Part shown: piece by piece, positions 14,076 through 19,503 of the stretch | Layout of the letters: each line of letters opens with the position of its first letter | Position numbering within the stretch: position 1 is the stretch's first letter | DNA from: Natrinema salaciae | GTDB taxonomy: Archaea > Halobacteriota > Halobacteria > Halobacteriales > Natrialbaceae | Direction: 5' to 3' | Assembly (NCBI RefSeq): GCF_900110865.1 | Contig: NZ_FOFD01000003.1 | Span: 310,001-374,000 of the forward strand | DNA: 64,000 bases | Translations under genes and position numbers: made by a program | The notes under the pieces: generated by a model | Databases searched by the model: none | What the model saw: the letters and a program-made list of their open reading frames with translations, nothing else | Told to the model about the DNA's origin: nothing

Positions 14076-14205
14076 CTTCTCCGCCGTTTCGACTCGAGCA
14101 CTTCTCCAACCCCGTCTCCCGGTTTCCAGTTGAAACGAAGGGGTCGAGCGAGCGATCTGTCCGTTACCAGAACCCATATTGGGTCGACGAACGTACAGTC
14201 GGTCG

Positions 14206-14955
14206 ATGAATCGACGGCAGTTTCTCGCAGTGGGATCGGCGGCGTTCGTGACGACCGTCGTAGGGTGCCTCGGCGGCAGCGGTGGCAACGAGGGTGACGG
14301 ATACGGCCCGGAACCGGAATCGGAACCCGAAGAGCGCTCGATCGACACCAGCACCTACGAGACGCAGACGTTCGACGGCGTCGAGGTTCCGCTGGCCCCC
14401 ATCGATGACGTCTTCTACTGGTATCAACGGCAGGAAGCCAGAATCGCCGACGCTCGTGGATCCGACCAGTACGAGAAATCACACATCGCCGGCGCGGCGC
14501 TGAGCACCGCGCCGCCGTACACCCCCGACGACGATCCGGTCGCGGACTGGTCGAAGGACGAACGGATCGTTACCTACTGCGGCTGTCCACATCACCTCTC
14601 GGGATTGCGGGCCGGGAAACTCATCGATAACGGCTACGAGGAAGTCTACGCGCTCGACGAGGGATTCACTGTCTGGACGAATCGCGGATACCCGCTCGAG
14701 GGGGCAGAGGTGTCGTCCGAGCAGGCGACCTATGAGATCCACGGCCAGTCGGATCCCGCTTACGCGGGCGAAATGGTTCGTCTCGAGCAGGTCGATGCGG
14801 AGCGCCTCGAAGCCAACCAGATCGCGTCCGACGGCACGTATACCATCACGCTCCACTACGCGGGCTCTCCGGCGTCGCGATTCAGGGTCAAGACCCCCGA
14901 GTACACGACCGAAGGGACCCTCGAGGAACTAACGAGCGACACCGTCACGGCCTGA
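14206..14955 (+). CDS. Tat-exported lipoprotein with rhodanese-like domain
   Basis: A 249-residue protein. The start MNRRQFLAVG is a twin-arginine signal, followed by a hydrophobic stretch and the lipobox VVGC at residues 22-25, so it is predicted to be exported folded and lipid-anchored outside the membrane. After an acidic linker, a rhodanese domain runs from about residue 60 to 170, including DARGSDQYEKSHIAGA and the loop YCGCPHHLSGLRAG that carries the catalytic cysteine, then GYEEVYALDEGFTVWTNRGYPLEG. The last 75 residues form an additional beta-rich domain of unknown role. It may handle sulfane sulphur or thiol redox outside the cell. Confidence 0.85.
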   Translation: MNRRQFLAVGSAAFVTTVVGCLGGSGGNEGDGYGPEPESEPEERSIDTSTYETQTFDGVEVPLAPIDDVFYWYQRQEARIADARGSDQYEKSHIAGAALSTAPPYTPDDDPVADWSKDERIVTYCGCPHHLSGLRAGKLIDNGYEEVYALDEGFTVWTNRGYPLEGAEVSSEQATYEIHGQSDPAYAGEMVRLEQVDAERLEANQIASDGTYTITLHYAGSPASRFRVKTPEYTTEGTLEELTSDTVTA

Positions 14956-14956
14956 C

Positions 14957-16324
14957 TTACTCTCCCGCAGTCCGGTCGTAGGCACCGTCCCGCTCGAGTT
15001 CGCCCCGTTTCCGAAGCACGTCCGGCGTTCGACAGATCCCCGGCGCGCCGGTCGCCTGCGGCACCGTGCAGTTGTTGCAGCTCTCGCAGATGACGCGCGG
15101 GTTCTCCGTCCGCGCGTCGGTCTCGAGCAGCCGCGCTCCCAATCGAGGTTCGGCGTAGAACGGGCGAGCCATACCGACCATGTCGCAGGCGGGTGCCGCG
15201 CCGCCGCCGGTAGCGCCCCTCTCGCTCGAGCCGAGCAACCGATCCATCTCGCCCCGCTCTCGAATCCCGCCCTCCGCCAGTACCGGGATCGACACCCGCT
15301 CGCGGACGCGCCGACAGAAGTCGGCGTTCCACGCCGGCTCGAACGTGTACTGGAACGACTGGACGCGGTTCGCCAGGGCGACGAGCCGCCTGCGAGCCGA
15401 GCCGCCGAACGCCGCGTCGTACTCCTCGCGCAGCGCTTCGTTCTCCCACGCCCGCTCGGGATACTCGCCGCGGACGATACTCATGTCCCACGCGACCGAC
15501 GTCCGGACGGGGACGACGGCGTCGTAGCCGATTCGCTCGAGCCGGCGGGCGATTTCGACGCCGTCCGCGAGGGAGAGCTTGCGGCGGACGACCGGCGACG
15601 GCGGTGCCGGCGTCTCGGCCGGGACTTTGGTCATGAGGGGCACGTCGCCCGCCCGCTCGCGGATCTCGTCGTGAACGACCGCGAGAAACTCGAGGCGCGC
15701 CTCGGGGGAGCCGCCGAACTCGTCGTCCCGCCGGTTGTAGAACGGCGAGCAGAACTGCTGGACGATCCCCATGTTGGCCCCCGCGAGGTGGACGCCGTCG
15801 TAGCCCGCCTCGACGGCGCGAGCCGCCGCGCGACCGAAGTCCGCCGCGAGGTCGTACACCTCGTCGGTCGCGAGGACGTGGGGGTCGTAGTCGAGAAACC
15901 CGAGCCGATCGAGCAGCCGCAACTGCCACGGCGGGCGGGAGACGGCGAGTTGCTCGAGTTCCGGATGCGCCGCGCGGTACTCGGCGTGCCAGGTCTCCAT
16001 GCTCCGGAGGCCGCCGTGCTCGAGCTGGACGACGATCCGGCTCCCGTGGTCGTGAATCCGGTCGGTCAGTCGCGACAGCCGAGCCACGAAGTCGGGGTCG
16101 TGGACGCGGGTCATCCCCGGCGCGGCACAGCCGCCGTCGCCGCGGACGATCGTCGCGCCCTGACAGACGAGGCCGACGCCCGACTCCGCGGCGGGCTCGA
16201 GATCGTCGATCAGCGTGTCGACCGCGTCGGGACCGTTGCCCGCACACTCGAGCAGCGGCGCGCGGTAGAGCCGGTTGGGGACCGTGACGCCGCCGATCTC
16301 GATGGGGTCCTCGAGGGTGGCCAT
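14957..16324 (-). CDS. Old Yellow Enzyme-family NADH:flavin oxidoreductase
   Basis: A 455-residue FMN enzyme of the OYE/2,4-dienoyl-CoA-reductase family. Motifs: IGGVTVPNRLYRAPL at the N-terminus, the FMN-binding GATIVR region, EHGGL (about residue 100), FGRAAARAVEAGYDGVHLAGANMGIVQQFCSPFYNRRDDEFGGS (about 165-205), which carries the proton-donor region, VLAEGGIRERGEMDRLL (about 355) and a late Cys motif CESCNNC (about 420) with a following C. The Cys cluster suggests a [4Fe-4S] site as in DCR-type enzymes. ATG 16324 gives the conserved start MATLEDPIEIGGVTVPN. It lies downstream of, and in the same direction as, the zinc alcohol dehydrogenase gene. Confidence 0.88.
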   Translation of the reverse strand: MATLEDPIEIGGVTVPNRLYRAPLLECAGNGPDAVDTLIDDLEPAAESGVGLVCQGATIVRGDGGCAAPGMTRVHDPDFVARLSRLTDRIHDHGSRIVVQLEHGGLRSMETWHAEYRAAHPELEQLAVSRPPWQLRLLDRLGFLDYDPHVLATDEVYDLAADFGRAAARAVEAGYDGVHLAGANMGIVQQFCSPFYNRRDDEFGGSPEARLEFLAVVHDEIRERAGDVPLMTKVPAETPAPPSPVVRRKLSLADGVEIARRLERIGYDAVVPVRTSVAWDMSIVRGEYPERAWENEALREEYDAAFGGSARRRLVALANRVQSFQYTFEPAWNADFCRRVRERVSIPVLAEGGIRERGEMDRLLGSSERGATGGGAAPACDMVGMARPFYAEPRLGARLLETDARTENPRVICESCNNCTVPQATGAPGICRTPDVLRKRGELERDGAYDRTAGE

Positions 16325-16422: not shown

Positions 16423-17466
16423 TCAGGGCGGGAGGACGACCGCGCGTCCCTCGATTTCGTTGTGCTCGAGCCGCTCGGCGACCGTGTTGATCTCGTCGAG
16501 GTCGTGGCGTTCGGTGTGCAGTTCGACGTCGCCGCGGTCGACGAGCGCGACGAGTTCCTGGAGTTCGGCGTACTTCCCGACGAGCGTGCCGCGGAACGAG
16601 AACTCGCCGTTGACCAGCGCCTGACTGGGTTCGTGGACGTGACCGCCGTAGCCGACGACGTGGTGGTCGCCCCCGGCGGCGACGATCTCGGGTGCCAGCC
16701 CGGTCGTCTCGTCGCGGCCGACGAAGTCGACGACCTGCTGGGCACCCTCGTCGTCGGTCAGGTCGGCGATCACCGCCGGGAGGTCCTCCTCGGCGGAGTT
16801 GACGGTGTGGCGAGCGCCCAGGTCCGTGGCCAACTCGAGCGCCTCGTCTTTGATGTCGACGGCGACGACGTCCGCGGCGCTCATCGCCTCGAGACACTGG
16901 AGTCCGATGTGACCGAGGCCGCCGACGCCGATGACGACGGTGGTGTCGCCGGGGTTCAGTTCGTCGACCGCTTTCTTCACGGCGTGGTAGGCCGTGATCC
17001 CCGCGTCGGCGTGGGGTGCGATCTCGGTCGGGTCGACGCCGTCCGGCAACGGGATCACCGCGCGTTCGTTGGTCCGGAGGTACTCGGCGAAGCCGCCGTC
17101 GGTGGTGAGGCCGTTGAACGCGCTGTTCTCGCAGTACATGTCCTCGCCGAGCCGACAGGGTCGACAGATGCCGCAGGTCTGGACCGGGTGGCAAATAACC
17201 GGGTCTCCCTCCTCGACGAGCGTCACTTCGTCGCCGGTCTCGGCGACGATTCCAGCGTTCTCGTGGCCGAGCGTCATCGGTAGCTCCTGCGGCGCGTAGT
17301 CGGTCCACATCCCCTCGATGATGTGATTGTCGGTCTGACACCACCCCGCCCCCTCGACCTCGACCAGTACGTGATCGGATCGCTCGAGGCCGGGACGGTC
17401 GATGTCCTCGACCTGTAGCGCGTCGCTCATGTCGTCGGTGTACTCGTGGAGTCTGGCTGCTTGCAT
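16423..17466 (-). CDS. Zinc-dependent alcohol dehydrogenase
   Basis: A 347-residue medium-chain dehydrogenase. Catalytic zinc ligands are in GWCQTDNH (Cys about residue 42) and GHENAG (His about 67). The structural zinc lobe has four Cys in CGICRPCRLGEDMYCEN (about 98-112), and the cofactor Rossmann motif is GVGGLGHIG (about 180). D in AVDIKD (about 205) favours NAD. Together with the divergently transcribed amidohydrolase and DUF59 genes it matches the gene content next to bacterial propane monooxygenases, where such an alcohol dehydrogenase oxidises the alcohol product. No monooxygenase is present here, so the substrate is open. Confidence 0.9.
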   Translation of the reverse strand: MQAARLHEYTDDMSDALQVEDIDRPGLERSDHVLVEVEGAGWCQTDNHIIEGMWTDYAPQELPMTLGHENAGIVAETGDEVTLVEEGDPVICHPVQTCGICRPCRLGEDMYCENSAFNGLTTDGGFAEYLRTNERAVIPLPDGVDPTEIAPHADAGITAYHAVKKAVDELNPGDTTVVIGVGGLGHIGLQCLEAMSAADVVAVDIKDEALELATDLGARHTVNSAEEDLPAVIADLTDDEGAQQVVDFVGRDETTGLAPEIVAAGGDHHVVGYGGHVHEPSQALVNGEFSFRGTLVGKYAELQELVALVDRGDVELHTERHDLDEINTVAERLEHNEIEGRAVVLPP

Positions 17467-17528
17467 GGTATCGCGTCACAGTTCCACGGCATCCGTGATA
17501 ACGTTCCCCTCGCGTATCGGTCCGTATG

Positions 17529-17542
17529 AATGTTCGAACATT
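17529..17542. promoter_or_regulatory. Perfect 14-base palindrome AATGTTCGAACATT
   Basis: The palindrome lies in an AT-rich stretch between the divergent alcohol dehydrogenase (start 17466) and amidohydrolase (start 17654) genes. It is about 63-76 bases before the first and about 110 before the second, a place where a dimeric regulator could control both. Palindromic sites this long are rare by chance. The regulator is not identified in the window. Confidence 0.45.
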
Positions 17543-17653
17543 GATATATGGATATGAATATGCAAATTTTGACCACGTACATTCAACTCGTATTGTGATT
17601 CGTATATGTGCGAAAAAAGAGTAATGTGGTATGGTATCGATGTTCACTATGGG

Positions 17654-18718
17654 ATGTATCAGCACAACGGAGAGGAGATCTTCGTCATCGACGGTCACGT
17701 ACACCTGTGGGACGCCACGGAGGAGAACATCAAACACGAGGGCGGGGAGGAGTTTATTCAGTGTTTCTACGATTACCACACGACGTTCACGCCCGAGGAA
17801 CGGCAGTGGGACATGGCCGAGTATCGCGAGTACGGTGCCGACCGGATGGTCGAGGATCTGTTCGGCAACGCCGCCGCGGACATGGCGATCTTTCAGCCGA
17901 CCTACCTCACCGACTTCTACACGGAGGGGTTCAACACGACCGAGCAGAACGCCGCACTCGCGACCGAGCACCCCGAGCGGTTCGTACTCAACGGCACGTT
18001 CGACCCGCGCGACGGTGAGACGGGCCTCGAGTACCTCGAGGAGCTCCACGAGACGTACGATATTCCCGGCGTCAAACTCTACACGGCGGAGTGGCGCGGC
18101 GATTCGAAGGGGTGGCGACTCGACGACGACGAGGCCTTCGAGTTCCTGGAGAAGTGTTCGGAACTCGGCATCGAGAACATCCACGCGCACAAGGGGCCGA
18201 CGATCCGGCCGCTGAACCGCGACGCGTTCGACGTGGCGGACATCGACGACGCGGCTTCGTCGTTCCCGGAACTCAACTTCGTCGTCGAACACGTCGGCCT
18301 CCCCCGCCTCGACGACTTCTGCTGGATCGCCGCCCAGGAGAACAACGTCTACGGCGGACTGGCCGTCGCCGCGCCGTTCGCCCAGAACCGACCGGGCAAG
18401 TTCTCCGAGATCATGTCCGAACTCCTCTGGTGGCTCGGCGACGATCGCATCCTCTTCGGCTCGGACTACGCGCTCTGGAACCCCGACTGGCTCGTCGAGG
18501 AGGTCCTCGACGCCGAACTCACGCAGGAACACCGCGTGGAGTACGGCGTCGAGTGGGACCTCGAGACCAAGAAGAAAGTCATGGGCGAGAACGCCGCCGA
18601 CCTCTACGATATCGACATCGAGGCGAAACGGCAGGCGTTCCAGGACGACGCGATCAGCCAGCAGTTCGGGCTCGAGGACCACTACGCGAGCGAGGAACCC
18701 GCACCGGCCGACGACTGA
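17654..18718 (+). CDS. Amidohydrolase family protein (monooxygenase-cluster type)
   Basis: A 354-residue metal-dependent TIM-barrel protein of the amidohydrolase_2 group. The metal-binding HxH is in VIDGHVHLWDA near the N-terminus. Other features are VKLYTAEWRGDSKGW (about residue 135), NIHAHKGPTIRPLNRDAFDVADID (about 175), FVVEHVGLPR (about 210) and SDYALWNPDW (about 265), which holds the late Asp. From memory these segments match the amidohydrolase encoded in bacterial mim/prm propane monooxygenase operons. An earlier in-frame ATG exists at 17606; I prefer 17654 (MYQHNGEEIFVIDGHVH) because homologues begin there. The stop overlaps the DUF59 start (TGATG). Confidence 0.85.
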   Translation: MYQHNGEEIFVIDGHVHLWDATEENIKHEGGEEFIQCFYDYHTTFTPEERQWDMAEYREYGADRMVEDLFGNAAADMAIFQPTYLTDFYTEGFNTTEQNAALATEHPERFVLNGTFDPRDGETGLEYLEELHETYDIPGVKLYTAEWRGDSKGWRLDDDEAFEFLEKCSELGIENIHAHKGPTIRPLNRDAFDVADIDDAASSFPELNFVVEHVGLPRLDDFCWIAAQENNVYGGLAVAAPFAQNRPGKFSEIMSELLWWLGDDRILFGSDYALWNPDWLVEEVLDAELTQEHRVEYGVEWDLETKKKVMGENAADLYDIDIEAKRQAFQDDAISQQFGLEDHYASEEPAPADD

Positions 18719-19503
18719 TGAGCGCACAGACTCCCGACGGCCCGACTCGAGCGGCCGTCCGCGACCGACTGGACCGGGTCACCGATCCGGAACTCGACCG
18801 CTCGATCGTCGCGCTCGACTATGTCGACCGGATCGAGATCGACGGCCGGACCGCCGCCGTCGACCTCACGCTCCCGACGGCGTGGTGCTCACCGGCGTTC
18901 GCGTGGATGATGGCGGTCGACGCCCGCGACGAGGTCGAGTCCCTGTCGACGGTCGAAACGGCCCGCATCGTGCTCCACGATCACATGCACGAGGCGGAGA
19001 TCAACCGCGGCGTGAACCAGCGGCTCACGTTCGCCGAGGCGTTTCCGGACGCCGACGGCGACGTCGACGCGGTCCGTACGGAACTCGACGAGAAGGCTCG
19101 CGTCGCCCGTCAGTACGATGCCGTCGAAGCGCTGCTCGATGCCGGCCTCGACGCCGGGGCGATCGTCGAGCTCCGTCTCCGCGACCTCGAGCGAGATGGG
19201 GCCGGGTCCGACGACGCTACCGAGACCGTCGCCGTCTACGTCCGCGATCGTTCGTTCGCCATCGCCGTTCCCGAAGCGCCGATCGAGCGCTACCTCGAGA
19301 AGGCCCGCGAGACGTCCCTCGTCTCGAATCCGGACGACGTCCTATTTCGAACGCCGGAGGGCGAGCCGATCGACGCCGAGTCGTTCGACCTCGTCCACCG
19401 GCGAGGGCGGCTCGCGACGGTCAACATGTCGAGTCAAGGCGGCATCTGTGACGGGCTTCGAGAAGCGAGGGAGGGTCGGCTCGAGGGGAGCGCCGACGAC
19501 TGA
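18718..19503 (+). CDS. DUF59/MIP18-family iron-sulfur assembly protein
   Basis: A 261-residue protein with an N-terminal DUF59 domain (RVTDPELDRSIVALDYVDRIEI, then LTLPTAWCSPAFAWMMAVDARDEV). The second part is characteristic of the long version found beside binuclear-iron monooxygenases: HDHMHEAEINRGVNQRLTFAEAFP, a helical middle and a late FDLVHRRGRLATVNMSSQGGICDGLREA. Cysteines in WCSP and GICDGL could bind iron or an Fe-S cluster. It is translationally coupled to the amidohydrolase by a one-base overlap. The likely role is metallocentre assembly for a partner enzyme that is not in this window. Confidence 0.85.
   Translation: MSAQTPDGPTRAAVRDRLDRVTDPELDRSIVALDYVDRIEIDGRTAAVDLTLPTAWCSPAFAWMMAVDARDEVESLSTVETARIVLHDHMHEAEINRGVNQRLTFAEAFPDADGDVDAVRTELDEKARVARQYDAVEALLDAGLDAGAIVELRLRDLERDGAGSDDATETVAVYVRDRSFAIAVPEAPIERYLEKARETSLVSNPDDVLFRTPEGEPIDAESFDLVHRRGRLATVNMSSQGGICDGLREAREGRLEGSADD

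Follow-up and report, generated by a model that had tools for sequence, protein, structure and literature searches.

An amidohydrolase, a long DUF59 protein, and a zinc alcohol dehydrogenase encoded together in haloarchaea without a di-iron hydroxylase: a probable self-standing alcohol/ketone module

Why would a haloarchaeon carry, side by side, three genes best known from the downstream end of bacterial propane-type monooxygenase operons? The question is raised by a 64,000-nucleotide stretch of Natrinema salaciae (RefSeq assembly GCF_900110865.1, contig NZ_FOFD01000003.1, positions 310,001 to 374,000; the whole stretch is called the window here), in which an amidohydrolase-superfamily protein (AH), a long DUF59 protein, and a zinc-type medium-chain alcohol dehydrogenase (ADH) are encoded together, as confirmed by coordinates and Pfam matches (Table 1). 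The original prediction likened this trio to the accessory set of soluble di-iron monooxygenase (prm/mim) operons, noted that no hydroxylase gene lay nearby, and suggested that the set either works independently or serves an unlinked di-iron enzyme. We propose that AH works with the long DUF59 protein as a single functional unit, downstream of the ADH, in a self-standing module for the catabolism or detoxification of a small alcohol or ketone, an explanation that we consider, as a whole, rather likely.

The window trio belongs to the same families as the linked AH/DUF59/ADH set of prm operons, and the two are true relatives, so that the likeness drawn in the original prediction proved well founded. 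The window AH is mostly 54 to 63% identical to the AHs of group-5 di-iron monooxygenase (prm/mim) operons, and between the haloarchaeal and bacterial sets the mean identity is 54% for AH, 31% for DUF59, and 46% for ADH. On plasmids as well as genome contigs, relatives of AH lie in operons encoding hydroxylase alpha, reductase, hydroxylase beta, and coupling protein, followed downstream by AH, DUF59, GroEL, and often an NAD(P)-dependent ADH; published gene maps of Gordonia, Rhodococcus, and Mycobacterium likewise place the same genes downstream of the monooxygenase (PMC4428276, PMC6849523, PMC9213486). The prm/mim operons of Gordonia TY-5, Rhodococcus, and Mycobacterium share with the window the adjacency of AH, DUF59 (labelled "metal-sulfur cluster biosynthetic"), and zinc ADH, whereas the window locus lacks prmABCD and the GroEL-like mimG, its genome has no hydroxylase in a Phenol_Hydrox search, and its ADH is divergently transcribed. 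In Mycobacterium sp. AT1, AH, an unknown protein, and ADH lie together away from the monooxygenase, with which GroEL stays (PMC6849523); this arrangement is like the window trio, although that strain, unlike the window genome, keeps the monooxygenase and GroEL at another locus.

The constant linkage of the set to group-5 hydroxylases in Pseudomonadota and Actinomycetota would suit a set that helps to mature an unlinked di-iron monooxygenase, with DUF59 and AH inserting its di-iron centre or tuning it and the ADH taking the alcohol; moreover, DUF59 proteins such as PaaD mature oxygenases elsewhere. We nevertheless regard this reading as improbable. The Phenol_Hydrox profile gave no match in the window's genome (4.86 Mb), from which PaaA/PaaC are also absent, the AlkB-type, BoxB, and ferritin-like di-iron families not being part of the search. 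The built-in control genomes gave no match to this profile, and hydroxylase-linked genomes served as positive controls instead: all six hydroxylase-linked bacterial genomes matched, as did four haloarchaea. Among the 391 haloarchaeal genomes of our sample, a soluble di-iron hydroxylase with alpha and beta genes was found in four (L167 to L170), its alpha being ~25% identical to PrmA of propane-type operons. AH and DUF59 are absent from all four (0 of 4 is not significant alone), and none of the 123 trio-bearing haloarchaea is among them. Bacterial genomes with orphan loci (those without a linked hydroxylase) lacked any Phenol_Hydrox match in 13 of 19 cases, several of them being metagenome-assembled genomes, where absence is softer. 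Hydroxylase-free trio genomes in both domains support the suggestion that the set works independently, and they speak against its serving an unlinked di-iron enzyme.

The chaperonin follows the monooxygenase rather than the trio. According to a paper citing their work (PMC6849523), Furuya et al. (2013) found GroEL to be essential for heterologous monooxygenase activity. Where hydroxylase and trio are apart (L075, L112), GroEL sides with the hydroxylase, and probing of the haloarchaeal loci, as opposed to the rest of the genome, with Caballeronia GroEL gave no match. The Furuya construct reportedly contained neither AH nor DUF59, which would argue against their need in assembly. Group-5 di-iron monooxygenase operons have probably recruited AH/DUF59 as a downstream pathway and not as a hydroxylase-assembly kit.

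Co-inheritance among haloarchaea ties the three genes together. AH orthologues occur in 123 of the 391 genomes, about one third (a match in G330, a 28% identical paralogue, was left out), and these 123, no more and no fewer, also encode the long DUF59 protein. The two genes are adjacent in all 39 haloarchaeal loci read in detail, with ADH adjacent in 34; the remaining five haloarchaea encode a 67 to 77% identical ADH elsewhere in the genome. Since AH and DUF59 share the same genomes and are always adjacent in these loci, the grouping is not due to chance. With a cut-off of E 1e-100 (and 59% identity in the most divergent case inspected), ADH is present in 122 of the 123 AH/DUF59 genomes and in 98 further genomes without the pair, a co-occurrence with a Fisher p of ~2e-38 that is inflated by shared ancestry. 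The pair is almost never found without ADH and ADH is often found without the pair, which fits a dependence of AH/DUF59 on the ADH reaction. That AH/DUF59 presence implies ADH would also be expected if the pair served the ADH itself, for example by metal loading, but we consider this very unlikely in view of the 98 haloarchaea that have the same ADH without AH/DUF59, of the orphan AH-DUF59 loci without an adjacent ADH (L040, L050, L061, and L073), and of the full catalytic site that AH retains of its own.

AH-DUF59 loci without a linked hydroxylase extend to Thermomicrobium, Thermogemmatispora, Chloroflexus, Ktedonobacterales, Dehalococcoidia, Poribacteria, several Bacillota, and some Pseudomonadota and Actinomycetota. 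In orphan trios of Thermomicrobium, Thermogemmatispora, Chloroflexus, and Bacillota (L042, L051, L088, L091, L057, and L069), AH, DUF59, and ADH lie in one operon without a hydroxylase; they differ from the window in their co-directional genes and, in some, an IclR-type regulator. At least five gene orders of the trio exist, namely, divergent ADH, ADH-AH-DUF59, AH-DUF59-ADH, DUF59-AH-ADH (Thermomicrobium), and ADH-DUF59-AH (Poribacteria). Only in two bacterial loci, both at contig ends, do AH and DUF59 not lie next to each other. Iron-transporter neighbours, suggestive in Thermomicrobium, were rejected, the L069 transporter being of the oligopeptide type.

A maximum-likelihood tree of AH groups the haloarchaeal sequences together, without any hydroxylase-linked member, and a long branch (support 100, length 0.5) splits them from the bacterial ones. 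Within the bacterial part, hydroxylase-linked AHs cluster with orphans in mixed groups. The outgroup branch is very long and the root unsafe, and we claim no direction of transfer. Trees placing the proteins with unrelated families, which would have undone the original prediction, were not found. The word "accessory" probably reverses the history, given that orphans exist both in haloarchaea and across many phyla of bacteria and that hydroxylase-linked AHs lie inside the bacterial tree, with the root uncertain. A patchy distribution (about one third of haloarchaea, and 13 of the 21 sampled genomes of the window's genus) could be expected of a relic, that is, of a module that came with a propane-type operon, has since lost its hydroxylase, and is now decaying. 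Such decay is hardly credible with reading frames that are open, active-site residues conserved across deep divergence, perfect co-retention of AH and DUF59, and haloarchaeal AHs confined to that one long branch.

What could the unit do? AH belongs to the Amidohydrolase superfamily, as indicated by its Amidohydro_2 match (E 1.3e-46) and its HxH, H, H, D metal-site pattern, formed by H31, H33, H195, H229, and D287 (numbered on the 370-amino-acid frame opening at 17606). H31, H195, H229, and D287 are present in 129 of 129 AH sequences, and H33 in 127. The two Bacillota orphans L040 (Peribacillus) and L129 (Paenibacillus validus) have alanine for the second histidine of HxH, together with a DJ-1/PfpI gene immediately after DUF59, and they possibly carry a diverged version of the pair. 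AlphaFold models AH as a TIM barrel (pLDDT 86), and the solved structures closest to it in fold are dihydroxybenzoate and carboxyvanillate decarboxylases, LigJ hydratase, ACMSD, and lactonase-type proteins. The barrel and the HxH..H..H..D site are common to these Amidohydro_2 decarboxylases and hydratases; however, AH is only 11 to 17% identical to them, and therefore neither substrate nor function can be transferred. Pentatricopeptide-repeat matches in the PDB sequence search were judged spurious. The same fold neighbours could mean that AH/DUF59 act on an unrelated metabolite, by carboxylate decarboxylation, hydration, or lactone hydrolysis, with the ADH using an alcohol other than C3. We think this unlikely, as the linkage to propane/acetone-type operons and the strong expression on acetone speak against it.

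The long DUF59 protein has a MIP18-like N-terminal domain, close to CIAO2B in fold, and shares this domain and the conserved cysteine, an invariant column in the alignment of the long proteins, with CIAO2B, SufT, and PaaD. It differs from them in an extra C-terminal domain, predicted to be recombinase-like, and in falling far under the NCBIfam equivalog cut-offs, with 28.9 bits against 180 for PaaD and 19.1 against 143.4 for the SUF-associated DUF59 (SufT). In the predicted model, residues 124 to 240 align to the catalytic core of Cre (1drg; Z 10.8, 102 residues, root-mean-square deviation 3.7) and the C-terminal half aligns more weakly to XerA (Z 7.9), with Pfam PF00589 detected there in only 1 of 34 members, at E 0.09. 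The alignment ends at Cre residue 275, with just 21 residues left, and does not cover the His-Arg...Tyr active site of the recombinase, which we take to be His289, Arg292, and Tyr324. The C-terminal half looks like a recombinase fold reused without recombinase chemistry, a predicted pairing with DUF59 that is unusual for a metabolic gene set. In G352 (C4:158962-159819), the long DUF59 gene appears split, with two matches that share part of the query and lie separately in the genome, possibly through a frameshift or sequencing error.

As for the ADH, its closest solved relatives are the Aeropyrum ADH 1h2b and the Rhodococcus ruber secondary ADH (ADH-A), a kinship from which it is probably a secondary-alcohol dehydrogenase. 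It is 45 to 51% identical to the ADHs of bacterial trios versus mostly 36% or less to paralogues in its own genome.

Altogether, we propose the following mechanism. The ADH would oxidise a small secondary alcohol or act on acetol. AH, most likely the catalyst as a metal-dependent enzyme of its superfamily, would be matured by the DUF59 protein and convert the ADH product further, unless the unit uses the ADH precursor instead. DUF59 would be the dedicated metal- or cluster-loading partner of AH, its most likely client because DUF59 accompanies AH everywhere, also without a hydroxylase. In the proteome of Actinomycetospora cells growing on 2-hydroxyisobutyrate, AH accounts for 3.2% and Adh1 for 6.1%, similar to MimA/MimC, and acetone-grown cells differ little in this respect (PMC7176365); such bulk expression suits an enzyme carrying flux. 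The substrate may tentatively be placed at the level of 2-propanol, acetone, acetol, or methylglyoxal. Neighbouring genes of a glyoxalase or DJ-1 type, a weak hint of chemistry at the methylglyoxal level, are present in three ADH-less orphan loci, the two Bacillota ones mentioned above and Rhizobium N324, where a glyoxalase-family gene is followed by a 2-hydroxyacid dehydrogenase.

Several points weigh against this proposal. Glyoxalase-type neighbours occur in only 3 of 22 loci, and their tie to methylglyoxal is drawn from what these families generally do. The presumed substrate preference of the ADH is drawn from relatives, and shared ancestry accounts for part of the co-occurrence. No AH or long DUF59 protein of the family has a known activity, the literature found assigns the prm-operon AH/DUF59 no function, and our literature search gave no report of haloarchaeal growth on propane, isopropanol, or acetone with the trio. 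In hydroxylase-linked loci the pair may have a second role, in maturation, and since the chaperonin MimG is equally abundant, bulk expression is also compatible with a role in assembly (PMC7176365).

Table 1. Features of the trio locus (positions in the window)
Feature	Position	Strand	Remarks
Zinc-type medium-chain alcohol dehydrogenase (ADH)	16423..17466	-	347 aa; Pfam ADH_N + ADH_zinc_N
ADH/AH divergent promoter region, AT-rich	17467..17653	.	Between head-to-head genes
Amidohydrolase-superfamily protein (AH), Amidohydro_2/COG2159 type	17654..18718	+	354 aa from ATG 17654; Pfam Amidohydro_2
Long DUF59 protein	18718..19503	+	261 aa; Pfam FeS_assembly_P E 3.2e-13
DUF59/MIP18 (FeS_assembly_P) domain with invariant Cys57	18748..18963	+	Pfam residues 11-82; CIAO2B Z 12.6
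DUF59 protein C-terminal domain, tyrosine-recombinase-core-like predicted fold	19087..19437	+	Residues 124-240; AlphaFold pLDDT mostly >84

Concerning the layout, the AH open reading frame spans 17606 to 18718 (+), and the start MYxxNGE.. shared by homologues makes the ATG given in Table 1 most likely the true one. The stop codon of AH and the start codon of DUF59 overlap by one base (TGATG). The head-to-head ADH/AH arrangement recurs in 30 of the 39 haloarchaeal loci, and inspection of the promoter between them, by eye only, yielded no operator motif. A regulator gene of the BAT/HTH_10 (bacterio-opsin activator) type lies near ADH in the haloarchaeal loci L045, L046, L141, L164, and L166 and is a candidate regulator of the trio; as a constant extra member it was rejected, being beside several loci and not all. 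An Old-yellow-enzyme-type NADH:flavin oxidoreductase gene adjoins the ADH at ~14957 to 16250 (-) and is retained there in other genomes of the family, in which the surrounding region is for the most part syntenic too, and a putative lipoprotein with a rhodanese-like domain, at 14179 to 14955 (+), keeps its position within the family. Across haloarchaeal loci, no gene besides the trio recurs in most families, and the recurring neighbours mostly reflect family-level synteny.

The prm/mim-operon trio was already known; its self-standing form without a hydroxylase, in haloarchaea and bacteria, is a new variant. The AH and DUF59 genes of propane/acetone operons have repeatedly been drawn in gene maps without a function, and strict co-inheritance of the trio in 123 haloarchaea, together with its presence in several bacterial phyla without a di-iron hydroxylase, makes a purely hydroxylase-accessory role unlikely. 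More speculatively, AH and its DUF59-recombinase-fold hybrid maturase might constitute an undescribed two-protein metalloenzyme system that works after a secondary ADH, in archaea as well as bacteria, to transform a short-chain ketone or hydroxyketone; haloarchaea would then have an unrecognised C3 alcohol/ketone pathway. The distribution of the trio makes the role of AH/DUF59 testable in tractable haloarchaea free of a monooxygenase background, and it suggests that about one third of the haloarchaeal class has an alcohol/ketone pathway not yet assigned.

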